Shown one piece after another: positions 18,666 to 32,508 of a stretch of DNA of 33,888 bases. This DNA is from Rhodoferax sp. (GTDB lineage Bacteria > Pseudomonadota > Gammaproteobacteria > Burkholderiales > Burkholderiaceae_C), in assembly GCA_013791765.1 (NCBI GenBank), contig VMTC01000108.1:1-33888 (forward strand), written 5' to 3'. A model generated the notes under the pieces. It did not search any database. It worked only from the letters and a program-made list of their open reading frames with translations, and had not been told where the DNA came from. Within the stretch, counting starts at the first letter, position 1. Each line of letters opens with the position of its first letter. The translations under genes and the position numbers were made by a program.

Positions 18666-18768
18666 TGTAACTTTGGCCGATTGTCATTCGCCATGGCGGC
18701 GAAAGCAGCGGCGGCGTCAGCGCGATCGATAGAATTTGATCCCTGTTTGTGCACTTGATTGGCCGGCT

Positions 18769-19521
18769 TTGAACTTGAACCTGATTGACTTGAACCGCTT
18801 TGACGCCGCCATTGTTGACCTTGACGGCACCATGGTCGACACGCTGGACGATTTTTGTGTCGCGCTGAACCGGATGCTGGGCGATCTGCCGGCACCTTTT
18901 GCAGCCAGCCGGGTCGACCGGGGTGCAATCGAGAAACTGGTTGGAAAAGGCTCCGAACATTTACTCAAAAGCGTGCTAGCCCTCGTTTACAGGGCGTCAG
19001 AAGCTACTAATTCAGAAGTAAACGACGGGCCGGCGGCAAGCGGTGAGGCCGATCTGCTGGAGCGGCTCTATCCCCCGGCTTGGGAGAGTTACCAGCGCCA
19101 TTACCACCAGGTTAATGGTCAATACGCCCGCGTTTTCCCCGGCGTTCAGGCCGGCTTGCAGTATCTGCAAGCGCGCGGCCTGAAGCTGGCTTGCCTGACC
19201 AACAAGCCGACGGCCTTTGCCCAGGCGCTGTTGCAGGCCAAAGGGCTGGACGGCTTCTTTGACCTTACGTTTGGCGGCGATGCTTTTGAGCGCAAAAAAC
19301 CCGACCCCTTGCCGCTTCTCGCCACCTGCGCCGCTCTGGGCACGGCGCCGCAGCGCACCTTGATGATTGGCGACTCCAGCAATGACGCGCAAGCGGCGCA
19401 TGCGGCGGGCTGCCCGGTGCTGCTGGTCACCTACGGCTACAACCACGGCGAGCCGATTCGCGAAGTCAAAGCCGATGCTTACCTCGACTCCCTTCAGCAA
19501 CTGATGGCGCCTGATTCTTAG
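18769..19521 (+). CDS. gph: Phosphoglycolate phosphatase (HAD family)
   Basis: A roughly 250-residue HAD hydrolase that dephosphorylates 2-phosphoglycolate. Motif I is [12 protein letters not shown], motif II LTNKPT, the Lys motif [10 protein letters not shown] and motif [17 protein letters not shown]. There is no ATG before motif I; I use the TTG at 18769, and TTG codons at 18736, 18775 and 18790 are alternatives. gph commonly precedes trpE in betaproteobacteria, and trpE lies downstream here beyond a block of opposite-strand genes. Residues about 67-85 ([14 protein letters not shown]) are encoded by a dispersed repeat and lie in the cap domain. The TAG stop overlaps the convergent chemoreceptor stop by 4 bp. 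Confidence 0.85.
18966..19023 (-). repeat. gph: Dispersed short repeat, copy 5 (in frame inside gph)
   Basis: On the plus strand: GTGCTAGCCC, a variable stretch with GGGCG, then GAAGCTACTAATTCAGAAG and TAAA. In reverse this aligns with TTTACT...TTAG-TAGCT...GGGCTAG of the intergenic copies. The frame used by gph runs through it without a stop. Confidence 0.6.
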
Positions 19522-21113
19522 GTAAGCCGGAGCAGGCCAGTGGGCCCGCCCGTTGATTCGGGCTCGGCGTTGCCCAGCTTGAACATCGCCACGGTGTGGA
19601 CCAGCGCCTGCGCGCGGGCTTTGAGGCTGCCGGCCGAGGCGGCCATTTCTTCCACCAGCGCCGCGTTTTGCTGCGTGACCTGATCCATCTGGGCGATGGC
19701 CTCGCCGACCTGCGAGACGCCATCGCTCTGGTCGGTACTGGCGATGCTGATTTCAGCCATGATGTCGGTCACCTGGCGAATGCTGCTCACCACCTCACTC
19801 ATGGTGGCGCCGGCCTGGTCGACCAGCGCAGTGCCTTTGGCCACGCGCTCAACACTTGCGTTGATCAGGGACTTGATCTCGCGGGCCGCCTCGGCCGAGC
19901 GCCCGGCGAGTGAGCGCACCTCGCTGGCAACCACGGCAAAACCTCGGCCCTGCTCACCGGCCCGCGCCGCTTCCACGGCGGCGTTGAGCGCGAGGATGTT
20001 GGTCTGGAAGGCAATGCCGTCAATCACACTGATGATGTCGGATATCTTGCGCGAGGCGTCGTTGATGCCTTTCATGGTGTCCACCACCTGGCTCACCACG
20101 TCGCCGCCGCGCGCGGCCACGCTGCTGGCGTTCAGCGCCAGTTCGTTGGCCTTGTGGGCGTTGTCGGCGTTTTGCCTGACGTTGGCGCTGAGCAGTTCCA
20201 TCGACGCTGAGGTTTCTTGCAGCGAACTGGCCTGACTCTCGGTACGGGCTGACAGATCGAGGTCGCCCTGGGCGATTTCGGCGCTGGCCGTGGCCACGCT
20301 GTCGGCGTCATCGCGCACCTCGGCCACCACCGTGCTCAGGTGCGCCTGCATGTCCTTGAGCGCCAGCAGCAAAAGCGCGGTCTCGCTCTTGCCGTTGGCC
20401 TCGAACTGCTGGCTCAAGTCGCCAGCGGCAACGGCGCGCGCCACCGCCACCGCCTGGTTGAGCGGGCCGGTGATAGAACGAATGATCCAGGCCGCCATCA
20501 GCACGGCCAGCAGCAGGGCAATGGCGAGCGTGGCCCAGATGACGAGCTTCATGCTGGTGGCGGCCTGCTGGGTGGCGTTGGTGGATTGATTCAGTTGGCT
20601 GTCCAGATGCGTGAGCAGGCCGTTCAGGGTCTCAAAGTAAGCTTCTTGCGCGGGCGCCACCTTGTCCATCAGCAGCGTCCTGGCCTCAAAAAATGATCCT
20701 GCATTGACCAGGGCCATGACTTCTGCCTGCATGGGATCGTACTGGCGGCGCACCTGGGCCACCCTGGCCAGCACGGCCTTGCCGGTGTCGGAGGTCGTCT
20801 GCGTGTCAAGCTTGCTCAGGTTGGAGTCAACGCGCACGCGCGCTGACTCAATGCGTTCAACCTCTGTCTTGATGCCGTCGGCGTCGCGCATCATCATGGT
20901 GTTGCGCAGCGCTATCGAGATCAGGTTCAGGTCGCCCTTGACTTCGTTGGTGGTGGCGATGCTCGGCACGCGCTCATCAATCACCTGGTTGAACAGCGTG
21001 TTCATGACGCCCACCTTGAGCAGCGACACGCCCCCCATGAGGGCAATCAGGAGGCCCAGTACGCCAAAGCCGAAGCTCAGGCGGCTGGAGATTTTTAGGT
21101 TATTGAGGTTCAC
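19518..21113 (-). CDS. Methyl-accepting chemotaxis protein (no C-terminal pentapeptide)
   Basis: A 531-residue chemoreceptor: membrane segment 1 at about 11-31, a four-helix-bundle periplasmic sensor (about 35-188), membrane segment 2 at about 190-210, a HAMP domain ([21 protein letters not shown]) and a long cytoplasmic coiled-coil. The signalling tip contains [20 protein letters not shown]. It ends in LLRLT, without a CheR-tethering pentapeptide. The C-terminal half is closely similar to the next chemoreceptor and includes a nearly identical DNA stretch. It starts at ATG 21113 and converges with gph, overlapping by 4 bp. The ligand is unknown. Confidence 0.93.
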
Positions 21114-21368
21114 GAAGCGCGTCCTTAAAAAAATGAACTTGGCCGGTGCAAGGCCGGCAATCGCCGGGGTGGTCGGCCCGGTCGTCGTCCGGTCATCATG
21201 TGCTGCTTAGTCGCCGAGAAAAAATAACTTGAACATTCCCCATCCTCCATGCGAGCGCCATGCTGCGTTGCAAATCGCTTGTTTGGCTTGCCAAACTGCG
21301 CGCTTTGCGCCTTGCCTGGCATCTCGCCTGAAAGCGGGTCATTGTCCAATTTATTTTTTCTCGACTCC
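21114..21368. other. 255-bp gap between chemoreceptor genes
   Basis: No gene is visible. It holds a perfect 16-bp inverted repeat GTTTGGC-TT-GCCAAAC (21281-21296). A T-rich stretch also precedes the downstream receptor on the minus strand; a sigma28-like pairing there is too weak to call. Confidence 0.4.
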
Positions 21369-23156
21369 TTAAAACGTCTCCCAGTCGCCCTCGCTGCCCC
21401 CGGCTGCAGGCGGCGCTTTGGGCGGGCTGGCGCGCGCCACCACGGATGACGCGGTGGCAGCGGGCTTGCCGGCTGGGCTGCTGGCACGCGAGCGCGCCGC
21501 TGCCCCCTTGGGAACGCCGGCGCCGCGCCGCTCAGTGCCCTTGAAGGGTACTGCACCCGGCTTGTGCGAACGCACAGCTGCCAGCGTGGCCACACCGAGT
21601 TGGCTGTCATGGGCGCCAAGCTTGAACAAGGCCACCACTTGCACCAGTTCCTGCGCTTGGGATTTAAGACTGCTGGCGGCAGCGGCCATTTCTTCAACCA
21701 GGGCCGCATTCTGCTGCGTCGCCTGGTCCATTTGGGTGACCGCTTCTCCGACTTGGGCCACGCCCAGGCTCTGCTCGGTGCTGGCAGCACTGATTTCGCC
21801 CATGATGTCCGTCACGCGCTTGATTGAGCTGACCACTTCGGTCATGGTACTGCCAGCCCGGTCCACCAGCGCCGTGCCTTGCTCGACCCGCTCCACGCTG
21901 GCATTGATGAGGCTCTTTATTTCCTTGGCCGCCTCGGCCGAACGGCCTGCCAGCGAGCGCACTTCAGAGGCCACCACGGCAAAGCCGCGGCCTTGCTCCC
22001 CGGCCCGCGCCGCCTCCACGGCGGCGTTGAGCGCGAGGATGTTGGTCTGGAAGGCAATGCCGTCAATCACACTGATGATGTCGGAGATCTTGCGCGAGGC
22101 GTCGTTGATGCCTTTCATGGTGTCCACCACCTGCGCCACCACCTCGCCGCCTTGCACCGCGACCGTGCTGGCGCTCATCGCCAGTTGGTTGGCTTGGCGC
22201 GCGTTGTCGGCGTTGGCTTTGACGGTGGAACTGAGCTGCTCCATGGAAGCAGCCGTTTGCTCTAACGCGCTGGCCTGACTCTCGGTGCGGCTTGAGAGAT
22301 CGTTGTTGCCTTGGGCGATCTCGGCGCTGGCGGAGGCCACGCCTTCGGAGCCCTGGCGCACGTTACTCACCACCTTGGCCAGGCTGGTCTGCATATGGGC
22401 AAAGCCGCGCATCAGGGCAGAGATCTCGTCGGTGCCGCTGCCCACGGGAATGCTTTGGCTTAAATCTCCTTGCGCCACCGCTTCAGAGATTTCGACCGCC
22501 CGCTGCAAGGGGTTGGCTATGCCCCGCGCCAACACCCAGCCAAACCAGGCGGCAAACAGGAGACCCATGGCGATGGAGGCAACGCTGACAGTGCGGATGG
22601 TGATGTAGCGGGAGCTGGCAGTCTCGAAGCTGTGTTTGGCTTCGTCCAGCTGGTATTGGTTCAAGGCGTCAGCGGCGTCGCGTGCGGCGTCAAAGGCCGG
22701 GCCAATTTTTTCCACGGCCAGCCGTTTTGTCGCTTCAATGTCGTTGGCGCGCAAGGCCGCAATGGCCGGCTTCAACCCGTCTTGCACGTATTGGGCGCGC
22801 TTTTCGGCATAGGCTTTGGCCAGCTGCGCCTCGGCAGGCGATTGGGGTCCGGCCATGTAGCCTTCCCACATCTGGGCGATTTTGGCGATTCCGGCTTCGA
22901 CCTCCTCACCGGTGCGCGTGATGCCTTCTGGCGTTGGCTCAATGATCGCGTTGGCGATCATCAGGCGGTTGCGCAGCATCAGGAACGTGATGTTGCTGAT
23001 GTTGGAAATCTGCAGCGTGGAGTCTTTATAGCTGGTCTCGAGTGCCTGGTCGCTCTTGCTCATGCCAAGCAGACCAATGGCGCCAATCAGCACCAGTAAA
23101 AACGACATTACGCCGATCAGGATGGCAAGTCGGGTGGAAATCTTCAGTCTGTTCAT
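21369..23156 (-). CDS. Methyl-accepting chemotaxis protein with C-terminal DWETF
   Basis: A 595-residue chemoreceptor: membrane segment 1 about 10-30, a four-helix sensor domain, membrane segment 2 about 190-208, HAMP ([21 protein letters not shown]) and the conserved signalling hairpin ([20 protein letters not shown]). A tail of about 60 residues rich in Ala, Pro, Lys and Ser ends in DWETF. This resembles the NWETF pentapeptide that recruits the CheR methyltransferase and CheB methylesterase in enterobacterial receptors, so it may act as a high-abundance-type receptor. The start ATG is at 23156. The ligand is unknown. Confidence 0.93.
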
Positions 23157-23206
23157 TCACTTGGCTCCTGGGGCCTGCGCACCGCAAAACCGCCATCATA
23201 AGGCCG

Positions 23207-23244
23207 CCCGCAGGCCAGACGCGCTGGCCTGCGGGTGGGTTTTT
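23207..23244 (+). terminator. Strong intrinsic-terminator-like hairpin, plus orientation
   Basis: A perfect 12-bp stem (CCCGCAGGCCAG / CTGGCCTGCGGG, 5-nt loop) is followed on the plus strand by TGGGTTTTT. The genes on both sides run on the minus strand, where there is no T-tract after the stem. It may still end the chalcone-isomerase-like transcript, which stops 5 bp away. Confidence 0.55.
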
Positions 23245-23248
23245 CCGC

Positions 23249-23833
23249 CTACTTATCGCCCAGCAGCGCTTCTTTGAGTTTTTCGTCGGCCGGTACCGGG
23301 CCCAGCCAGATCATCATCAGTGCCTTAAAAAATTCCGGCTCCTTGAAGGGCTCGCCTTGGACCACCCCCTTGACGGTGATGAGGGTGCCAGAGCCGGGCA
23401 CCCACTCGATCATGAACTGGTCACCTGGCGTCAAGTCCTTTTGCGCAGCAAAGATCTCCCCCATGCGAATCAGGCCTGGAATCAGCTTGGACATCGCCGC
23501 CTTGCCCATGTTGTCCTCCACGCCGCGCGTGAGCAGCTTGCCCAGTTCTCCGGAGTTAATTTTTCGCAGCATCGTGACGCTCAGGCGCTTGGGGCCACTC
23601 TGGTTGACGACCTCATCGGCTGTGGTGGCCTTTTTTGCCAGATACAAGCCCGCCACGTAGACCTTGAAAATGGCTTTGTAGCGGGTGCCCGCACCATTGA
23701 GCTGCAATTGCGTGCCATTCATATCTACAGGGTCAGCCAGCTTGACGCCGTGAATCTCCATGGGAGCGGCCAGGGTGTTGAGTGCGAACAGGGTGGCGCC
23801 GAGCGTCAGCACCAGGTATTTAAAGAGTTTCAT
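23249..23833 (-). CDS. Chalcone isomerase-like secreted protein, copy 1
   Basis: A 194-residue protein with a signal peptide (KLFKYLVLTLGATLFALNTL, cleavage after LAA) and a bacterial chalcone-isomerase-like domain: VKLADPVDMNGTQLQLNGAG, FKVYVAGLYL, LIPGLIRMGEIF and GEPFKEPEFFKALMMIWLGP. It is predicted to be periplasmic; bacterial members have no established flavonoid substrate. The start is ATG 23833 with GGAAGA upstream. It is paralogous to the next gene on the same strand, about 86 bp away, so the pair probably arose by tandem duplication. Function unknown. Confidence 0.8.
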   Translation of the reverse strand: MKLFKYLVLTLGATLFALNTLAAPMEIHGVKLADPVDMNGTQLQLNGAGTRYKAIFKVYVAGLYLAKKATTADEVVNQSGPKRLSVTMLRKINSGELGKLLTRGVEDNMGKAAMSKLIPGLIRMGEIFAAQKDLTPGDQFMIEWVPGSGTLITVKGVVQGEPFKEPEFFKALMMIWLGPVPADEKLKEALLGDK

Positions 23834-23919
23834 AGGTCTTCCAGTTAGAAACGAAGGGTACAAGTGCCCGCTGCAGCCAAGGGCTCGTTCAAAAATAAGG
23901 TGTGCATGTTGTTGCTTGG

Positions 23920-24507
23920 CTAATCCTTGGCACCCAGCAGCGCGTCCTTGAGGCGCCAGTCCGCTGGTGAGGGGCCCAGCCAGATCGACATCATGGCCTT
24001 GAAGAACTCCGGCTCCTTGAACGGCTCGCCTTGGACCTTGCCCCTGAAGGTGGTGATCATGCCGGTGCCGGGAATCCAGTCGATCAGGATGACGTCGCCT
24101 GCGGCCATCATCTTGTTGGATGAAAAAATATCGCCCATGCGAATCAGACCGGGGATCAATTTGGACATTTCAGCGCGGGGGGTGTTGTCTTCAATTCCCC
24201 GAGTCAGCAGCTTGCCCAGCGGGCCGGCCTCGACGTCACGCAACATCGTCATGGTCAGGCGCTTGGGGCCGGGTGCAGCCACGAGCTCGTCGAGTGATTT
24301 GATTTTCTTGCTGGCATAGATATCAGCCACATAGACTTTGAACGGGCCTTTGTATCGGGTGCCGGCCCCGTTGAGTTGCAGCTTGACGCCGTTGACGGTG
24401 GCGCTGTCTTCGACCTTGACGCCATGGATGTCCAGGCTGGCCGCCAGCGCAGGCAAGGTGAGCAGGCTGACGCTGACGGCCAGCGCCAGACGTTGAATGA
24501 GATTCAT
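23920..24507 (-). CDS. Chalcone isomerase-like secreted protein, copy 2
   Basis: A 195-residue paralog of the neighbouring gene with its own signal peptide (LIQRLALAVSVSLLTLPALA). It shares the same domain landmarks: VNGVKLQLNGAGTRYKGPFK, FKVYVADIYA, LIPGLIRMGDIF and GEPFKEPEFFKAMMSIWLGP. The ATG at 24507 has AAGGAAA 7 nt upstream; the frame continues to 24582 without good start signals. It is the first gene of the pair and diverges from the trp operon. The two may act together in the periplasm, but nothing here shows on what. Confidence 0.8.
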   Translation of the reverse strand: MNLIQRLALAVSVSLLTLPALAASLDIHGVKVEDSATVNGVKLQLNGAGTRYKGPFKVYVADIYASKKIKSLDELVAAPGPKRLTMTMLRDVEAGPLGKLLTRGIEDNTPRAEMSKLIPGLIRMGDIFSSNKMMAAGDVILIDWIPGTGMITTFRGKVQGEPFKEPEFFKAMMSIWLGPSPADWRLKDALLGAKD

Positions 24508-24653
24508 GGGTTTCCTTTGAATAGAACGACCATACTTTTCGGTCGGCGGCGCCATTTTGGGGTGAACGCCAGCGGTGCGCAAGAGGGTTTTCGCTTAGGG
24601 TTTTTTATCCCCTGTCCCGCAGGAGACGTCGCACCCGACCGTCGCCGGGGGTT

Positions 24654-24662
24654 TGCTACACT
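24654..24662 (+). promoter_or_regulatory. Extended -10 element of the trp operon
   Basis: TTTGCTACACT ends at 24662 and contains the extended -10 form TGnTACACT. No convincing -35 lies upstream. A start about 7 nt downstream of the -10 would fall near 24669, right at the leader ATG. Confidence 0.45.
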
Positions 24663-24669
24663 GACGCGC

Positions 24670-24759
24670 ATGTTCATTCACCGCGTCAATATTACAGGTT
24701 GCAGCGACCGGGGAGCCTGGCTCTGGCGGTCTTGGCGGGCAAGCCGCGCTTGCGACTGA
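24670..24759 (+). CDS. trpL: trp operon leader peptide
   Basis: A 29-codon open frame ending 143 bp before trpE. Trp codons at 17, 19 and 22 give WLWRSW. A short, Trp-rich frame directly before trpE is the signature of translation-sensing attenuation, in which ribosome stalling at Trp codons sets the RNA fold ahead of the structural genes. No Shine-Dalgarno precedes its ATG. With the extended -10 just upstream, the mRNA may start at or near this ATG. The terminator expected of classical attenuation is not clear in the following segment. Confidence 0.6.
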   Translation: MFIHRVNITGCSDRGAWLWRSWRASRACD

Positions 24760-24902
24760 GTCTACTTTTACGCTTTGCCTGAATGAACCGCAGCACCGGT
24801 GCTGCCTGATGCACCAGATCAGATTGCCCGCAGGGACGTGCAGCCCCGCCAGAGGGGAATGGTCTTGAAAAGGTTCGCTACTGTATTGAAAGAACCCACG
24901 CC
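24760..24902 (+). promoter_or_regulatory. Candidate attenuator region of the trp leader
   Basis: It contains a 16-bp palindrome GCAGCACCGGTGCTGC (24790-24805), a weaker CTGAT/ATCAG hairpin just after it, and CCCC/GGGG near 24859. Another small hairpin, GCAAG-CCGCG-CTTGC, sits at 24739-24753 inside the leader. T-runs are limited to CTTTT near 24765. Alternative pairings are plausible, but I could not establish a terminator/antiterminator switch. Confidence 0.35.
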
Positions 24903-26414
24903 GTGATCTCTGAACTCGAATTTAAAAGCCTGAGCGCCCAAGGCTACAACCGCATTCCCTTGCTGGCAGAAGCCTTTGCCGATCTGGAAACCCCCTTGTC
25001 GCTGTACCTCAAGCTGGCGTATTCCAAAGACAGCGGCAAGTACAGTTTTTTGCTGGAGTCGGTGGTCGGTGGCGAACGCTTTGGCCGTTACAGCTTCATC
25101 GGCCTGCCGGCGCGCACGCTCCTACGCTCCATGGGCTTTGGCATTGACGCCCGTACCGAAGTGGTGACCGATGGCGTGGTGGTGGAGACCTCACACGCCA
25201 ACCCGCTGGATTTCATCTCGGAGTACCAAAAACGCCTCAAGGTGGCGCTGCGCCCCGGTTTGCCGCGCTTTTGCGGTGGTCTGGCGGGCTACTTTGGCTA
25301 CGACGCGGTGCGCTATATTGAGAAAAAATTGGAGGCATCGTGCCCGCCCGATACCCTGGGTTGCCCCGATATTTTGCTGTTGCAGTGCGAGGAGCTGGCC
25401 GTCATCGACAACTTGTCTGGCAAGCTGTATTTGATCGTCTATGCCGACCCGGCCCACCCTGAAGCCTACGCCAATGCCAAGAAGCGATTGCGCGAGCTCA
25501 AGGAGCAGCTCAAATACTCGGTCAGCGCACCCATGGTCAAACCGACGCAAAGCTACCCCATAGAGCGCGACTTTGCCAAGGCCGATTACCTGGCCGCGGT
25601 GGAACGCGCCAAGGCACTGATTGCCGGGGGCGACTTCATGCAGGTGCAGGTCGGTCAGCGCATCAAGAAACGCTATACCGAGTCGCCCTTAAGCCTGTAC
25701 CGGGCGCTGCGCGCGCTCAACCCCAGCCCCTACATGTATTACTACCACTTTGGCGACTTTCATGTGGTCGGGGCGTCGCCCGAGATTTTGGTGCGCCAGG
25801 AGCAGATCAGCAACGACGGGCAGACCGAACAAAAGATCACCATCCGCCCGCTGGCGGGTACTCGGCCTCGTGGCGCCACGCCCGAAAAGGACAAGGAGGC
25901 CGAGGTTGAATTGCTGGGCGACCCCAAAGAACGCGCCGAGCACGTGATGCTGATCGATCTGGCGCGCAATGACATTGGCCGCATTGCCAAAATCGGCAGC
26001 GTGAAGGTCACGGAAGCCTTCAGCGTGGAACGCTACAGCCATGTCATGCACATTGTGAGCAATGTGGAGGGCACGCTGCTCGAGGGCATGAGCAGCATGG
26101 ACGTGCTCAAAGCCACCTTCCCGGCAGGCACCTTGACCGGTGCACCCAAGGTGCACGCCATGGAGCTGATCGACCAACTCGAGCCGACCAAGCGCGGGCT
26201 CTATGGTGGTGCTTGCGGTTACCTGAGTTATGCCGGCGACATGGATGTGGCGATTGCCATTCGCACCGGCATCATCAAGGACCAGGTGCTTTATGTGCAG
26301 GCTGCGGCCGGCATCGTGGCCGATTCGGTGCCCGAGCTGGAGTGGAAAGAGACCGAGGCCAAGGCGCGCGCGCTTCTAAGGGCGGCGGAGTTGGTGGAGG
26401 AGGGCCTGGAGTGA
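24903..26414 (+). CDS. trpE: Anthranilate synthase component I
   Basis: A 503-residue enzyme that converts chorismate to anthranilate with ammonia supplied by TrpG, the first step of tryptophan synthesis. The N-terminal LLES (FLLESVVGG) and the NPSPYM motif form the tryptophan feedback site, so the enzyme should be inhibited by tryptophan. Catalytic-domain motifs include ASPEILVR, LIDLARNDIGR and FPAGTLTGAPKVHAMELID. The start is GTG 24903, preceded by only weak ribosome-binding sequence. Its TGA overlaps the GTG of a diguanylate cyclase gene, and trpG comes only after that gene. Confidence 0.95.
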   Translation: MISELEFKSLSAQGYNRIPLLAEAFADLETPLSLYLKLAYSKDSGKYSFLLESVVGGERFGRYSFIGLPARTLLRSMGFGIDARTEVVTDGVVVETSHANPLDFISEYQKRLKVALRPGLPRFCGGLAGYFGYDAVRYIEKKLEASCPPDTLGCPDILLLQCEELAVIDNLSGKLYLIVYADPAHPEAYANAKKRLRELKEQLKYSVSAPMVKPTQSYPIERDFAKADYLAAVERAKALIAGGDFMQVQVGQRIKKRYTESPLSLYRALRALNPSPYMYYYHFGDFHVVGASPEILVRQEQISNDGQTEQKITIRPLAGTRPRGATPEKDKEAEVELLGDPKERAEHVMLIDLARNDIGRIAKIGSVKVTEAFSVERYSHVMHIVSNVEGTLLEGMSSMDVLKATFPAGTLTGAPKVHAMELIDQLEPTKRGLYGGACGYLSYAGDMDVAIAIRTGIIKDQVLYVQAAAGIVADSVPELEWKETEAKARALLRAAELVEEGLE

Positions 26415-28687
26415 GGCACTTGGCACCCCAATGGCGGCCGTGGCTGCTGTTGGCCTTGTGTTTGGGCGGCTTGGGTACCTACCTGGCCGTGAATCTGGCG
26501 CGCGACCGCACGCAGATTGCCGTGGCGGAGCAGGAGCGGCTGAGCGCACAGTCGAGAGTGATTGAAGTCAACTTGACGCGTCAGCTCCGCGCCATCAACC
26601 TTGCGCTGGAATCGATCATCACTGATCTGCCCTATTGGGCGGGTCAGCCCGACGGCAAGGCACGCGCCATCCACCAGATCAAGAGCATGGAGGCGTCCAT
26701 GCCGTCGGTGCGCACTCTGTTGGTGCTGGATGCCAACGGGACAGTCATCCAGTCTAGCCGTGCACAGCTGATGGGGCTCAATTTTTCCCAACGTGACTAT
26801 TTCCAGGCACCCTTGCGCTCATTGAATGCCCAAGCCCTTCATGTCAGTGCGCCGTTCAAGTCGGTAATGAATGTCTTCAGCGTTGCCTTGAGTCGCACCG
26901 TGCTCAATGCCAATGGCGGTTTTGGCGGCGCGGTGGTGGCGAACGTGGAGCCGGCCGATATCGAAATATTGCTCAATTCGGTGCGCTACGTCGACGACAT
27001 GCGCTCGATGCTGGTGCATGGGGATGGAACGATATTTGTCAGCCAACCTGCGTTGGACAATGTGATCGGCAAGAATGTGTCTTTGCCGGGTTCCTTTGTC
27101 AGGCAGCATCTGCAGAGCCAACGCCCGGTCAACCATTTCGAGGGCATCACCCAATCCACCGGGGACAAGCGCTTCGTGGTTCTGCGAACCATTCAACCCA
27201 CTGACCTGGCTATGAATAAACCGCTGGTCGTGTCGCTCAGCCGTGAGTCGCGCGCCTTGTTTACCTATTGGCAGCGCGATGCCAGAAACCAGCTGCTCGC
27301 GTTTGGGTTGCTGGCCCTGCTCAGCAGCTGGGGCCTGTGGTTTTATCGCCGTCAACGCCTGCAGCGGCGCCTGAGTCAGCAAAGGCTCAAATTGGCAACC
27401 GAAGCGGCCGGGGTCGGCATCTGGGAGTTCGACCTGAAGTCCCGGCGCTACCACTGGGACAGCGCCATGTTTGAGCTGTTCGGGCTCAAACCCCGTCTGA
27501 CCAATGAGCGCAACGACGACTGGCATCAGCTCCTGCTGCCGGGTGAACTCGCGCGGGTCAAGGCGGCCACTCGCGCGGTGCTCAAGCGCCGCGAAGCCTT
27601 CAATTTGACGTTCCAGATCCGGCGCCAGGACGGCGAGCTGCGCTTCATGCGCAACCGCGCGACGCTGCATCGCGATGAGCGGGGCGCGCCCAGTCGGCTG
27701 ATTGGCACGGCCGAGGACGTGACCGAGCGCAAGCTGCGCGAAGCTGATTTGCGCATTGCAGCGGCCGCCTTTGAATGCCAGGAATCCATCATGGTCACCG
27801 ACGCGAACCAGACAACTTTGCGCGTCAACCAGGCTTTTACGGCGCTGTTTGGCTACTCGGCCGAGGAAGCCGTGGGTCGCACGCCACGGATCTTGCAGTC
27901 GGGCCGGCAGGACCCGGCCTATTACGCCGCTATGTGGGGCGGCATCAAGCGCAGCGGGGCCTGGCAGGGGGAAATCTGGGACCGACACAAGAACGGGCGG
28001 CACTTTCCAGTTTGGCTCAGCATCACAGCGGTCAGTGGCGATGACGGTCTTGTCAGCCATTACGTGGCCACCCACACCGACATCACGCTGCGTAAGGCGG
28101 CTGAAGAAGAGATCAAGCAGCTGGCTTTTTACGACCCCTTGACGGGCCTACCGAATCGGCGTTTGCTGCAAGACCGGTTGCATCAGGCGATGAGCCAGGC
28201 CAAGCGCGAGCGCAGCCGCCTGGGGCTTTTGTTCCTGGATCTGGATAAGTTCAAGCCGGTCAACGATACCTTTGGTCACGGCGTCGGTGACGAACTGCTG
28301 CGGGCCGTGGCGCAGCGCCTGCAGGCCTGCGTGCGCGAGTCAGACACGGTGGCGCGTGTTGGCGGCGACGAGTTCGTGCTGCTGTTGCCGGTTATTGAAG
28401 CCGCCATCGATGCCAGCGCGGTTGCCCGCAAGATTCACGACGCTTTGATGGCGCCCTTCACTTTGTCACAAGGGCAAAGCGTGCACATGTCGGCCAGTAC
28501 CGGCATCGCTATTTACCCGGAACACGGCAGTGATGAGGCTGAGTTGACGCAACACGCGGATGCTGCCATGTACGAGGCCAAGGCGGGCGGGCGCGACCGC
28601 TTTGCGGTGTACGCGCCAAAGTTTGAGCCTGCCAATGCGCCATCAGGCGCCGATGCTGGCCCCGCTGACACGCCGGGAACGCCATGA
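26411..28687 (+). CDS. Membrane-bound PAS-PAS-GGDEF diguanylate cyclase
   Basis: A 758-residue sensor enzyme that should make cyclic di-GMP. Layout: membrane segment near 12-30, periplasmic sensor domain (about 31-290), second membrane segment about 294-312, PAS domain about 330-445 (AAGVGIWEFDLKSRRYHWDS), second PAS about 450-570 (ECQESIMVTDANQTTLRVNQ), then GGDEF. The active motif GGDEF at 651-655 is intact, and the inhibitory site RESD (642-645) lies at the standard distance upstream. No EAL domain. I choose GTG 26411, which overlaps the trpE stop as GTGA; the frame open back to 26213 lies inside trpE. Being inside a trp operon is unusual. Confidence 0.9.
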   Translation: MRHLAPQWRPWLLLALCLGGLGTYLAVNLARDRTQIAVAEQERLSAQSRVIEVNLTRQLRAINLALESIITDLPYWAGQPDGKARAIHQIKSMEASMPSVRTLLVLDANGTVIQSSRAQLMGLNFSQRDYFQAPLRSLNAQALHVSAPFKSVMNVFSVALSRTVLNANGGFGGAVVANVEPADIEILLNSVRYVDDMRSMLVHGDGTIFVSQPALDNVIGKNVSLPGSFVRQHLQSQRPVNHFEGITQSTGDKRFVVLRTIQPTDLAMNKPLVVSLSRESRALFTYWQRDARNQLLAFGLLALLSSWGLWFYRRQRLQRRLSQQRLKLATEAAGVGIWEFDLKSRRYHWDSAMFELFGLKPRLTNERNDDWHQLLLPGELARVKAATRAVLKRREAFNLTFQIRRQDGELRFMRNRATLHRDERGAPSRLIGTAEDVTERKLREADLRIAAAAFECQESIMVTDANQTTLRVNQAFTALFGYSAEEAVGRTPRILQSGRQDPAYYAAMWGGIKRSGAWQGEIWDRHKNGRHFPVWLSITAVSGDDGLVSHYVATHTDITLRKAAEEEIKQLAFYDPLTGLPNRRLLQDRLHQAMSQAKRERSRLGLLFLDLDKFKPVNDTFGHGVGDELLRAVAQRLQACVRESDTVARVGGDEFVLLLPVIEAAIDASAVARKIHDALMAPFTLSQGQSVHMSASTGIAIYPEHGSDEAELTQHADAAMYEAKAGGRDRFAVYAPKFEPANAPSGADAGPADTPGTP

Positions 28688-28706
28688 CTATTGAACGGAC
28701 AGCCCC

Positions 28707-29366
28707 ATGAAACTCTTGATGATCGACAACTACGACAGCTTCACCTACAACATCGTGCAGTACCTGGGCGAGCTGGGGGCAGAGGTGACGGTGGCGCGCA
28801 ACGATGAAATCACGCTGGCTGAGATAGACGCGCGCCTCACGGCGGGGCAACTGGACCGGCTGGTCATTTCACCCGGCCCGTGCTCGCCGGCTGAAGCGGG
28901 TATTTCGGTGGCGGCGATACAGCACTTTGCCGGCAAGCTGCCTATTTTGGGCGTTTGCCTGGGGCATCAAGCGATTGGCGCGGCCTTTGGCGGCAAGATC
29001 ATCCGGGCGCAGCAGCTGATGCACGGCAAGACTTCAGTGATTACCACCACGCAGGAGGGCGTTTTTGCGGGCTTGCCCCAGCAATTCACGGTCAACCGCT
29101 ACCACTCGCTCTCAATCGAGCGCGTCACTTGTCCGCCCTGCTTGAAAATCACCGCCTGGACCGATGACGGCGAAATCATGGGCATCAAGCACAGCAGCCT
29201 GGACATTGAAGGTGTGCAGTTTCATCCCGAGAGCATCCTGACCGAGCATGGGCATGCGATGCTGAAGAACTTCCTGAGACCTCGCGGGACAGACCGCAGT
29301 GACGCGAAGCGCACAAGCTCTGTCCCCGACACCTTGTCGGATGTCGGAAGTTCACCTCGCGACTAG
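28707..29366 (+). CDS. trpG: Anthranilate synthase component II (glutamine amidotransferase)
   Basis: A 219-residue class I glutamine amidotransferase that releases ammonia from glutamine for TrpE. The triad is visible: Cys84 in GVCLGHQ, and His173 and Glu175 in HPES. The oxyanion segment [11 protein letters not shown] is also intact. TrpG proteins usually end soon after LKNFL (here 186-190). Residues 191-219 are extra and are encoded by the GGGACAGA/TCTGTCCC repeat plus a further hairpin. The TAG stop lies just before another dispersed repeat. It follows the diguanylate cyclase by 19 bp. Confidence 0.93.
29286..29326. repeat. trpG: GGGACAGA/TCTGTCCC repeat, copy B (extends trpG)
   Basis: An inverted repeat with 8-bp ends GGGACAGA (29286-29293) and TCTGTCCC (29319-29326) around a partly shared core; 29290-29327 matches copy A at 18551-18588. 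A second hairpin, CCGACA/TGTCGG, follows at 29326-29340. Both are translated as the TrpG tail. Confidence 0.7.
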
Positions 29367-29367
29367 T

Positions 29368-29428
29368 ATTTACTCTCTATTAGATAGCTGCTCACGCTTA
29401 TTCCATAAGGGCTAGAGGCCAAAATGAC
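29368..29428 (+). repeat. Dispersed short repeat, copy 6 (reference copy)
   Basis: This copy gives the clearest layout: TTTACTCTCTATTAG, ATAGCTGC, a CACGCTTATTCCATAAG middle, then GGGCTAGAGGCCAAAATGAC. It spans from just after the trpG stop into the first codons of ltaE. AGAGG sits 6 nt before the ltaE ATG and could serve as its ribosome-binding site. Confidence 0.65.
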
Positions 29429-30491
29429 TCAAAAACACAATGAAATTAATGTCGACCTTCGCAGCGACACCGTGACGCAGCCAACACCCGCCATGCGCGC
29501 AGCCATGCTGGCAGCGCCCGTGGGTGACGACGTGTTTGGCGACGACCCCAGCGTCAACACCTTGCAGGACAAGCTGGCGGCGCTGCTGGGCTTTGAGGCG
29601 GCGCTGTTTGTGCCGACCGGCACGCAGAGCAATTTGTGCGCGATCCTGGCGCATTGCCAGCGCGGTGACGAATATATCGTGGGGCAATACGCGCATTGCT
29701 ACCGCTGGGAGGGCGGTGGCGCGGCGGTGTTTGGCAGCGTGCAGCCGCAGCCTCTGAACCACCAGCCTGATGGCACTTTGCTGCTGGCCGATATTGAAGA
29801 AGCCATCAAGCCCGACGACGAGCACTTTGCCCGTACCCGGCTGCTGGCGCTGGAAAACACGCTGGGGGGTAAGTTGTTGCCTTTTGACTATGTGCAGCAA
29901 GCCACCGACATGGCGGCCCGCCGCGGTCTGGCCCGGCATCTGGATGGCGCGCGCCTGTTCAATGCCGCGGTGGCGCAAGCGGCCGCTCAAGGCACGGACG
30001 CACTTCTGGAGGCGCGCCGTATTGCCCAGTGTTTTGACAGTGTGTCGGTTTGCCTGAGCAAGGGTCTGGGCGCGCCGGTCGGCTCGGTCTTGTGCGGCAG
30101 CCGGGACTTCATCGCACGCGCGCACCGCATCCGCAAAATGGCGGGCGGCGGCATGCGCCAGTCGGGTCTGCTGGCGGCGGCGGGCAGCTACGCGCTGGCG
30201 CATCACGTGGCCCGGCTGGCCGATGACCACGCGCTCATTCAACGGCTGGCTGAGGGCCTGGGCAAGCTGGCCGGCCTGGTCGTGGAGCCGCCACAGACCA
30301 ACATCTTGTTTGTCGATCTGGTAGGCGATGCCAAAGCGCGCGCAGCGGAGTTGATCCCGTACCTGGCGGCACGCGGCATTGGGGTTACCGGCTTGTACCG
30401 CCTGCGCTTTGTGACGCATCTGGATGTCGATGCGCCGGGGATTGAGCGCACCGTGGCGGCGATGCGAGATTTCTTGGCGGGCGAGCCCTGA
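29424..30491 (+). CDS. ltaE: Low-specificity L-threonine aldolase
   Basis: A 355-residue PLP enzyme that cleaves L-threonine or allo-threonine to glycine and acetaldehyde. Motifs: LRSDTVTQPT at the start, GDDVFGDDPSVN, HLDGARLFNAAVA and SVCLSKGLGAPVGS with the PLP lysine at 213. The ATG at 29424 lies at the right edge of a dispersed repeat, which also provides AGAGG upstream. It sits between trpG and trpD, where I know no conserved aldolase, so co-expression with tryptophan genes is inferred from position only. The TGA stop overlaps the remnant that follows. Confidence 0.9.
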   Translation: MTQKHNEINVDLRSDTVTQPTPAMRAAMLAAPVGDDVFGDDPSVNTLQDKLAALLGFEAALFVPTGTQSNLCAILAHCQRGDEYIVGQYAHCYRWEGGGAAVFGSVQPQPLNHQPDGTLLLADIEEAIKPDDEHFARTRLLALENTLGGKLLPFDYVQQATDMAARRGLARHLDGARLFNAAVAQAAAQGTDALLEARRIAQCFDSVSVCLSKGLGAPVGSVLCGSRDFIARAHRIRKMAGGGMRQSGLLAAAGSYALAHHVARLADDHALIQRLAEGLGKLAGLVVEPPQTNILFVDLVGDAKARAAELIPYLAARGIGVTGLYRLRFVTHLDVDAPGIERTVAAMRDFLAGEP

Positions 30492-30603
30492 GTCGCTGGA
30501 TCTGCTCACGTTCTTGCTGCTCGGGCTGGTCTTCAAATTCAACAGTCTGTGGGTCAACCTGGGCTACGCCGCACTGGGCCTGACCGACAATCCACTACCG
30601 TAA
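30490..30603 (+). pseudogene. C-terminal membrane-protein remnant (possibly LysE/RhtB-like)
   Basis: A 37-codon frame with a hydrophobic stretch (LTFLLLGLVFKFNSLW) and a clean TAA, but no start and no upstream domain. It resembles the LGLVFNLNG-type segment of LysE/RhtB exporters that I recall, which is weak evidence. A deletion fusing the end of ltaE to the tail of a former gene is the simplest reading. Confidence 0.35.
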
Positions 30604-30664
30604 CACCTGGCGCGAACGAGCCCAACGGGGCTGCGTGAATCAACTTTCATTCCAACTCAAAATC

Positions 30665-31717
30665 ATGTCCAACACCCTCAAAATCACCCCGCAAGAGGCT
30701 CTCTTACGCACCATCGAGCACCGCGAGATTTTTCATGATGAGATGCTGCACATCATGCGCGGCATCATGAACGGTGAGTGGTCGCCGGTCATGATGGCCG
30801 CCTTGATCACAGGCCTGCGCGTCAAGAAGGAAACCATTGGCGAAATCACGGCCGCTGCGCAGGTGATGCGCGAGTTCTCCACCAAGGTCAACGTCGCCGA
30901 CATCCGCCATCTGGTGGACATTGTGGGCACCGGTGGTGACGGCGCGCACACCTTCAACATTTCAACCTGCGCCATGTTTGTGGCTGCTGCTGCCGGGGCC
31001 CGCGTCAGCAAGCACGGGGGCCGCAGCGTCAGCAGCAAGAGCGGCAGCGCCGACGTGATGGAGTCGCTGGGCATCAACATCAACTTGTCGCCCGAGGCGA
31101 TTGCCCGGTGCATTGACGAGGTGGGCGTCGGCTTCATGTTTGCGCCCAACCACCATCCGGCCATGAAAAACGTGGCACCGGTGCGCAAGGAGTTGGGCAT
31201 CAAGACCATCTTCAATCTGCTCGGGCCGTTGACCAACCCGGCCAGTGCACCCAATATCCTGATGGGCGTGTTTCACCCGGACTTGGTGGGCATTCAGGTG
31301 CGTGCGCTGCAGCGTTTGGGCGCCGAGCATGCGCTTGTGGTGTATGGCCAAGACGGCATGGACGAGGTGTCGCTGGGCGCAACCACGCTGGTGGGAGAAC
31401 TCAAAAACGGTGAAATCACCGAATATCAGATTCACCCGGAAGATTTCGGCATGGTCATGGCCAGCAACCGCGCCCTGAAGGTCGAGACGCCGGAGCAGTC
31501 CAAAGCCATGCTGCTGGGGGTGCTGGACAACGCGGCGGGCGCCGCCAAAGACATCGTGATTCTCAATGCCGGTGTGGCGCTGTATGCGGCCAATGTGGCG
31601 CCGACCATGCGCGCGGGCATTGACAAGGCCCGGGCTGCGATTGAATCGGGCGCCGCCAAATCAAAATTGGCGCAACTTGTTTCTATCTCCCAACAACTCA
31701 AAGGTGCAGCAAAGTGA
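30665..31717 (+). CDS. trpD: Anthranilate phosphoribosyltransferase
   Basis: A 350-residue enzyme that adds the phosphoribosyl group of PRPP to anthranilate. Motifs: [14 protein letters not shown] in the helical domain, the PRPP-binding [17 protein letters not shown], and [22 protein letters not shown] 30665 ([19 protein letters not shown]) matches the usual N-terminus; a GTG at 30635 with a GGGG stretch upstream would add ten residues. Its stop overlaps the trpC start (GTGA). Confidence 0.93.
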
Positions 31718-32508
31718 GCGATATTCTGGAAAAAATCGTGGCGGTCAAGCGCCTGGAAGTGGCTGCAAATCTACGTCGCAAGCCCCTGGCCGTGATGCGC
31801 GCCGATGCCGAGTCGCGCGTGTTGACGCGCGATTTTTTGGCCGCGCTGCGTGCCAAGATCAGCGCGGGCCAACCTGCCGTGATTGCCGAGATCAAAAAAG
31901 CCAGCCCTTCCAAAGGGGTTCTGCGCGCGGATTTTATTCCTGCCGATATCGCGCAAGCCTATGCCGAGTGCGGCGCTGCGTGTTTGTCGGTGCTTACTGA
32001 CTCGCAGTTCTTTCAGGGCAGCATCGACGACCTCAAGCAGGCCCGGGCCTCCTGCCCCTTGCCGGTGCTGCGCAAAGACTTCATGGTGGACGCCTATCAA
32101 ATTTATGAATCCCGCGCCTGTGGGGCTGATGCGGTTCTGCTCATCGCCGCCATTCTGGATGACGCGCAAATGAAGGACTTTGAGGCCATTGCGCGCAGCC
32201 TGGACATGGCGGTGCTGGTGGAGGTGCATGACGCGGTTGAGTTGGCGCGCGCGCTCAAGCTCAAGACGCCTTTGATCGGCATCAACAACCGCAACCTTAA
32301 AACTTTTGAGGTCTCGCTCGACACCACCTTGGCACTCATGCGCGAACTGCCGGCGGACCGATTGCTGGTGTGCGAGAGTGGCATCCAGACCCGTGACGAC
32401 GTGCTGCGCATGGGGGCGGCCGGCGTCAATGCGTTTCTGGTGGGTGAGGCCTTCATGCGCGCGCCGGATCCCGGTGCGGCTTTGGCGGAGTTGTTTGCGC
32501 CAGCCTGA
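31714..32508 (+). CDS. trpC: Indole-3-glycerol phosphate synthase
   Basis: A 264-residue TIM-barrel enzyme that closes the indole ring of carboxyphenylaminodeoxyribulose phosphate. Motifs: [38 protein letters not shown] and [10 protein letters not shown]. The start is GTG 31714 inside the trpD stop overlap, with AAAGGTG upstream. trpF, trpB and trpA are not in the window and must lie elsewhere. ung starts one base after its stop. Confidence 0.95.

Follow-up and report, generated by a model that had tools for sequence, protein, structure and literature searches.

A diguanylate cyclase gene overlapping trpE in the tryptophan operon of Rhodoferax and a separate arrival behind trpC in other genera

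The tryptophan (trp) operon of a Rhodoferax species contains a gene for a diguanylate cyclase, inserted between the genes of the two anthranilate synthase components, trpE and trpG. The gene lies in a 33,888-nt stretch of DNA (contig VMTC01000108.1 of assembly GCA_013791765.1), which is called the window below. The operon genes of the window are all on the forward strand, in the order leader peptide, trpE, cyclase, trpG, a threonine aldolase-like gene, trpD and trpC. The cyclase is found at trpE in 28 further loci of the genus, and a cyclase of the same broad kind has entered the operon separately, behind trpC, in other genera of the family. An earlier interpretation, made from the letters of the window (the sequence-only reading), had drawn attention to this gene, and its conservation is broader than that reading could know. 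This observation stands; a regulatory link between tryptophan and cyclic di-GMP (c-di-GMP) is hypothetical. Among the titles and abstract openings listed for trp operons, trp attenuation, c-di-GMP and Rhodoferax, none reports a cyclase inside a trp operon.

The junction between trpE and the cyclase gene

The cyclase gene (26411..28687) encodes a dCache-PAS-PAS-GGDEF protein of 758 amino acids. It begins with a GTG codon (26411-26413) and ends with TGA (28685-28687). The stop codon of trpE, TGA at 26412-26414, shares the tetranucleotide GTGA with the cyclase start, and 19 nt separate the cyclase stop from the ATG of trpG at 28707. The sequence-only reading, which had placed the GTG over the trpE stop and the end of the gene 19 bp before trpG, agrees with these coordinates. 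A Shine-Dalgarno-like element, GGAGGAGGG (26396..26404), is located within the end of trpE, 6 nt before the cyclase GTG, and may serve the downstream start. A purine-rich stretch is present at the corresponding place in relatives.

The genome from which the window comes (4.17 Mb, 100% complete) contains 57 GGDEF domains. That one of them adjoins some trp gene is by itself unsurprising, as a rough estimate with an assumed gene number (57 x ~6 sites / ~4000 genes) gives ~0.09 such cases per genome. The arrangement is more than chance because many Rhodoferax species share the gene order and the overlap.

Conservation in the genus

A set of 89 genomes, called Rhodoferax here although a few members carry other names, such as Polaromonas, was searched for TrpE. 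Matches were found in 85 genomes, 6 of them to weak paralogues only, which left 79 trpE loci; the trp region was mapped in 78 fetched genomes and in the window. The cyclase is present at 29 of these loci, trpG follows trpE without a cyclase at 44, and trpG was not seen at 6. The order trpE-cyclase-trpG, which the sequence-only reading had proposed to look for in relatives, was found at 24 of the 29 cyclase loci, in many species, with the cyclase ending -4 to 82 nt before trpG. At the other loci, 792 nt of unassigned sequence (G016) or further genes spanning 3.9 kb (G052) and 4.8 kb (G047) lie between the cyclase and trpG, the locus runs off the contig (G023), or the cyclase sits behind trpG (G081).

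The overlap between the cyclase start (GTG/ATG) and trpE measures 4 nt at 25 of the 29 loci and 1 nt at two, G081 and G019 being the exceptions; this figure is biased towards overlap, since the in-frame start codon nearest to the trpE stop was picked. The identity of the trpE stop codon is independent of that choice. It is TGA at all 28 readable cyclase loci (27 fetched ones and the window) versus 19 of the 47 without the cyclase, the others having TAA or TAG; G019 and three cut genes are left out of this count. At several cyclase-free loci trpE and trpG overlap by 4 nt at the same spot, so that the cyclase apparently occupies what had been a coupling site able to serve trpG.

The motif RxxD-x5-GGDEF is intact in all 28 linked copies that are readable to the stop codon. 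In nine chosen pairs of loci, the ratio of nonsynonymous to synonymous substitution rates (dN/dS) is 0.16-0.27 for the cyclase versus 0.04-0.10 for trpE, dS being comparable between the two genes in most pairs. The 29 loci, the intact motifs and the dN/dS values exclude a decayed cyclase peculiar to one strain, a possibility raised with the original proposal. The sensor of the cyclase is matched in 47 of the 89 genomes at E <=1e-15, a good part of the matches being elsewhere in the genome.

Domains and sensor of the cyclase

The catalytic GGDEF domain (PF00990; E 8.6e-53, 178.8 bits against a cut-off of 23.8) covers residues 572-730 and is encoded by 28124..28600. The inhibitory I-site is recognised as an RxxD motif five residues upstream of GGDEF, and RESDTVARVGGDEF has precisely this spacing (RESD-TVARV-GGDEF), with RESD at 28334-28345 and GGDEF at 28361-28375. 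The other Pfam matches are PAS_3, PAS_9 and dCache_1, the last barely over its cut-off (46.8 versus 45 bits). The domains and motifs bear out the description of the gene as a complete cyclase with intact GGDEF and I-site, and the enzyme is probably functional.

The N-terminal part of the protein is a predicted periplasmic dCache sensor (residues ~35-289; 26513..27277), flanked by two long helices with transmembrane parts; the model places a two-lobed Cache fold between the transmembrane helices. Solved relatives of the sensor were found by profile search and comprise 3lif, KinD and, weakly, DctB. A phmmer search with the whole cyclase matched 117 sequences of the PDB, and none of the 60 matches listed spans the sensor. 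The chain of 3lif, named putative diguanylate cyclase (GGDEF) with PAS/PAC domain, is the sensor of a membrane cyclase of the dCache-PAS-GGDEF kind and is 19% identical to that of the window; no trp linkage is known for cyclases of that kind. KinD of Bacillus subtilis, solved as a pyruvate complex (4jgp), is a sporulation kinase, whereas the window protein is a cyclase, and pyruvate binding by the latter is putative. The nearly invariant Arg128 (codon 26792..26794) aligns with the residue that distinguishes the wild-type from the R131A KinD chains. The periplasmic ligand of the cyclase is perhaps a small carboxylate. Because the cyclase has its own sensor, transcription would set its amount and not its activity.

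A second arrival behind trpC

Cyclases of the same broad kind were also found behind trpC in at least 14 genomes of 5 genera in a sample of 399 genomes from 141 genera of the family. They were sought among good sensor matches, for which 20 + 12 regions were opened, and 14 is therefore a lower bound. The genomes belong to genera g5 (G092, G229, G312 and G439), g11 (G098), g96 (G283), g73 (G160, G342, G406 and G463) and g121 (G208, G300, G369 and G430). RxxD and GGEEF are present at 16 of the 18 loci read, a number that includes some second copies of one record; the other two are cut. Four of the proteins were scanned with Pfam, and in these GGDEF and PAS are clear and dCache_1 is present below the cut-off. 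The longest reading frame begins within 2 nt of the trpC stop in four records, and elsewhere after a gap of 9-104 nt or inside trpC; in G283, trpC and the matched stretch are ~500 nt apart. Among 59 named loci, the cyclase is at trpE in 20 (one moved behind trpG, one off the contig) and behind trpC in seven, namely Paenacidovorax caeni, Melaminivora alkalimesophila, an Alicycliphilus metagenome-assembled genome (MAG), Comamonadaceae CD01 and three further MAGs. The remaining 32 have no match to trpE, trpG, trpD or trpC in the stretch examined.

In the sensor tree, 28 trpE-linked copies (G081 counted in, G023 left out) and five copies that are from genus g62 or g62-like form one group, with a Shimodaira-Hasegawa-like approximate likelihood ratio (SH-aLRT) support of 100, or 99 with more rows. 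The post-trpC copies form one fully supported group in the tree of 43 rows. In the tree of 45 rows, the fully supported group also takes in four g96 copies located away from trp genes and the G283 copy, and a clade of post-trpC copies alone is not rejected (p 0.47). The approximately unbiased (AU) tests were made on quick trees with groups named from gene position. With them, the 28 trpE-linked sensors are compatible with a single origin (p 0.82), and a single trp-linked ancestor for both positions is rejected (p 2.6e-5 with 43 rows, 1.3e-4 with 45 rows). The rejection of a joint trp-linked clade implies at least two entries into the trp operon. This repeated entry is suggestive, although two chance arrivals are conceivable, given the many genera and the dozens of cyclases in each genome.

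The presence and absence of the cyclase require 12 changes on the TrpE tree versus 21 in shuffles, and the well-supported branches force 3 of them. In the pair G025/G046 the cyclase dS is below the trpE dS, and the sensor tree joins the two, which together suggest an exchange between species. Close homologues from the sister genus g62 lie outside trp clusters; on the three g62-type contigs examined (L167, L194 and L195), the gene is next to a uvrA-like gene (named by eye) and faces it. The cyclase would have been inserted into the trpE/trpG junction in or before the Rhodoferax ancestor, probably once; some lineages would have retained it since then, and others would have lost or exchanged it.

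The leader peptide

A short open reading frame (ORF) upstream of trpE, MFIHRVNITGCSDRGAWLWRSWRASRACD (24670..24759), contains three Trp codons. It is the leader peptide assumed by the sequence-only reading, and it is conserved in the genus: the leader was recognised at 63 of the 72 Rhodoferax loci with enough upstream sequence, the window included. Its consensus is near M-F-I-H-R-I-x-I-T-G-C-S-D-R-G-A-W-P-W-R. The search pattern contained GAW, and the conservation of that portion is thus by construction; the pattern left the second Trp, two positions further along, free, and this Trp is found in 63 of 63. The same leader is present at 14 of 14 post-trpC cyclase loci examined, a set that includes three second copies of one record, so that both kinds of cyclase lie downstream of one leader type.

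An extended -10-like element, TTTGCTACACT (24652..24662), is positioned 7 nt before the leader ATG and is a candidate promoter. It is the sole exact copy in the window. With one base left free, the box is found 6-7 nt before ATGTT in 61 of the 72 Rhodoferax trpE upstream regions, again with the window included. The spacing between box and ATG suggests that the leader transcript is probably leaderless. Directly after the leader ORF the T content peaks, and in 42 of 63 cases the folding of this region surpasses that of shuffled sequences. RNAalifold on the 63 leaders gave just a 6-bp hairpin over the Gly-Ala-Trp-Pro-Trp codons, and Rfam at gathering thresholds found three tRNAs and no family at the leader.

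As with the trpL-type leader peptides, trpE of the window is preceded by a short, Trp-containing ORF that is conserved in the genus. It differs from that type in being conserved along much of its first 20 residues and not at Trp alone, in seemingly being leaderless and in that no terminator was found at it in the window. It may represent a new leader-peptide family of Comamonadaceae-type bacteria, and it probably raises expression of the trp operon when tryptophan is short.

Coupling of the cyclase to the operon and rival explanations

With modest confidence, we favour the explanation that a working membrane-bound cyclase, probably inserted once between trpE and trpG, is coupled to the trp operon in its amount and set by a ligand in its activity. 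The cyclase would be read from the trp transcript, and ribosomes finishing TrpE could start on the cyclase at the coupling site that it took over. Being on that transcript and at that site, the cyclase should follow trp-operon expression in its amount, which would in turn respond to tryptophan. Its activity would be set separately, by the ligand of the periplasmic dCache domain and by product inhibition at the I-site. A bolder and rather doubtful proposal is that Burkholderiales have wired a ligand-gated cyclase to the trp genes on two occasions, which differ in genus and in position within the operon. Tryptophan shortage, sensed through the shared leader, would then raise the supply of cyclase and, given the right periplasmic ligand, c-di-GMP, as a two-input switch from starvation to attachment.

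The arrangement and its separate recurrence would be unexpected to a c-di-GMP specialist; the following observations, in particular the patchiness, the cargo and the absence of a visible attenuator, weigh against the favoured explanation. The occurrence of the cyclase at trpE is clustered but patchy. Its G+C content at third codon positions is 0.64, versus 0.74-0.78 for the trp genes and the aldolase-like gene, and the G019 copy, which is possibly broken, has no N-terminal transmembrane part. The leader is absent from 6 of 28 cyclase-bearing loci with readable upstream sequence, versus 3 of 44 loci without the cyclase (Fisher p 0.14), a skew that is, if anything, in the wrong direction for the two-input starvation switch. 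A scan of 24500-30700 found no terminator-like site at the leader of the window and two weak ones inside the cyclase (26428-26455 and 27066-27089); the seven sites of the whole scanned region, versus 5.7 in shuffles, are a chance number. Across the genus, terminator-like sites were found at 19 of 63 leaders, versus 3.6 in shuffles. One simple model of antiterminator pairing gave no signal, with a score of 15.48 for the 63 leaders and 15.45 for the shuffled ones. Taken together, these leader results make a simple attenuator less likely. Tryptophan control of c-di-GMP is hypothetical, with no terminator found at the window's leader, six cyclase loci devoid of the leader and other cargo at the junction. 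Of the original proposal, in which tryptophan status could set c-di-GMP output, the intact cyclase, the coupling arrangement, the gene order in relatives and the conserved leader with Trp codons have held up.

In favour of the explanation, no sigma70-like promoter pattern was found in 24500-30700, and the plus strand inside the cyclase contains nothing close to the leader box. Such pattern scans are weak, as they miss many promoters, including the conserved leader box, and this too counts against the favoured explanation. In one rival explanation, the cyclase would have its own promoter within the end of trpE, its position in the operon being incidental and trpG and trpDC being driven from there or from another internal promoter. 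The g62 homologues outside trp clusters indicate that the gene can be expressed independently, and at two of the linked loci additional genes, several kb in all, precede trpG. However, the 4-nt overlap with trpE at 25 of 29 loci leaves room for a promoter only inside trpE, and none was found by the scans, weak as they are; we consider this alternative improbable.

The junction may instead be a permissive spot, at which cargo (moron) genes gain low, steady expression from the trp transcript and the coupling site, tryptophan having no regulatory meaning for the cyclase. The cyclase is absent from 44 of the 73 resolved loci, and other genes occupy the same place. A YhcG/DUF1016 nuclease-like gene is found at the junction in G004, which has no cyclase, and in G047 (Pfam). 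The G004 gene (L123, 3057-4190) overlaps the end of trpE by 4 nt, so the coupling site is used by unrelated cargo. In G047 (L100) the interval between the cyclase and trpG also contains a phosphonate-binding-protein-like gene and an sCache-HAMP-PAS-GGDEF-EAL gene (Pfam); a similar pair is seen by eye in G052 (L117), and the junction of G081 has a small ORF without a Pfam match. Non-trp genes in trp operons are known and have been discussed as possible morons (PMC2395257). The cases described there are, as here, foreign genes between trp genes; their positions, between trpB and trpA or between trpF and trpB, differ from trpE/trpG, and the words GGDEF and Rhodoferax are absent from the main text of that paper. 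Relatives of the cyclase also follow other metabolic genes, such as the saccharopine dehydrogenase-like genes of two loci that carry the names Geobacteraceae and Desulfuromonadaceae. Against the cyclase being mere cargo, its motifs have stayed intact under purifying selection across deep divergence. The same holds for the second, separate entry of such a cyclase into a trp operon and for the fact that the extra cargo of G047 and G052 includes another c-di-GMP enzyme. We regard the cargo explanation as possible but unlikely.

The gene pair of G047 and G052 is an observation in its own right, being a second c-di-GMP module in one trp junction. In a control set of 32 unlinked relatives (five of them g62-type), 15 loci have a same-strand ORF within 150 nt upstream; of the 10 such ORFs scanned, four are without a Pfam match and may be spurious. 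At two loci (L220, 126-1139; L233, 8503-9852) the cyclase relative begins 88 nt after the saccharopine dehydrogenase-like gene, another possible association with a metabolic gene.

The trp genes and their neighbourhood

The trpE gene of the window (24903..26414) was assigned by NCBIfam trpE_most over the cut-off and by Pfam Chorismate_bind, and trpG (28707..29366) by NCBIfam trpG_papA over the cut-off. The next gene (29424..30491) is similar to low-specificity L-threonine aldolases (NCBIfam PRK10534, 430 bits with a cut-off of 312). It sits between trpG and trpD in the window and at 55 of the 61 fetched Rhodoferax loci in which both are seen; in three loci (L064, L096 and L099) it is followed by a LysE-type exporter-like gene, recognised by eye. 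It is followed in the window by trpD (30635..31717) and trpC (31714..32508), whose GTG start overlaps the trpD stop, both over their NCBIfam cut-offs (trpD and TrpC).

The two chemoreceptors that the sequence-only reading had seen just upstream are real genes (21369-23156 and 19518-21113), but they are on the strand opposite to the trp operon, and the nearer one is separated from trpE by ~1.7 kb and two Chalcone_3 genes. Their strand rules them out as operon partners. A phosphoglycolate phosphatase-like gene (named by eye) is located immediately upstream of trpE in 14 of the 78 fetched loci; in the stretch 18736-24582 of the window, the two chemoreceptor genes and two Chalcone_3 genes on the opposite strand part it from trpE.

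Implications

The gene structure, the coupling arrangement, its conservation, the active-site motifs, the leader peptide and the dCache fold come from sequence or model; co-transcription, a response of expression to tryptophan, the ligand, the catalytic activity, the single insertion and any influence on biofilm formation or motility are inferred. How each GGDEF enzyme of a cell attains its specificity is an open question, and the genome of the window has 57 GGDEF domains. If the favoured explanation is true, translational coupling into a biosynthetic operon would be a simple solution, with the supply of the enzyme set by the metabolic state and its activity by a ligand. The separate recruitment into the operon of the same pathway makes this idea of supply and activity testable. 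The finding hints that these bacteria may link amino-acid supply to the choice between moving and settling.

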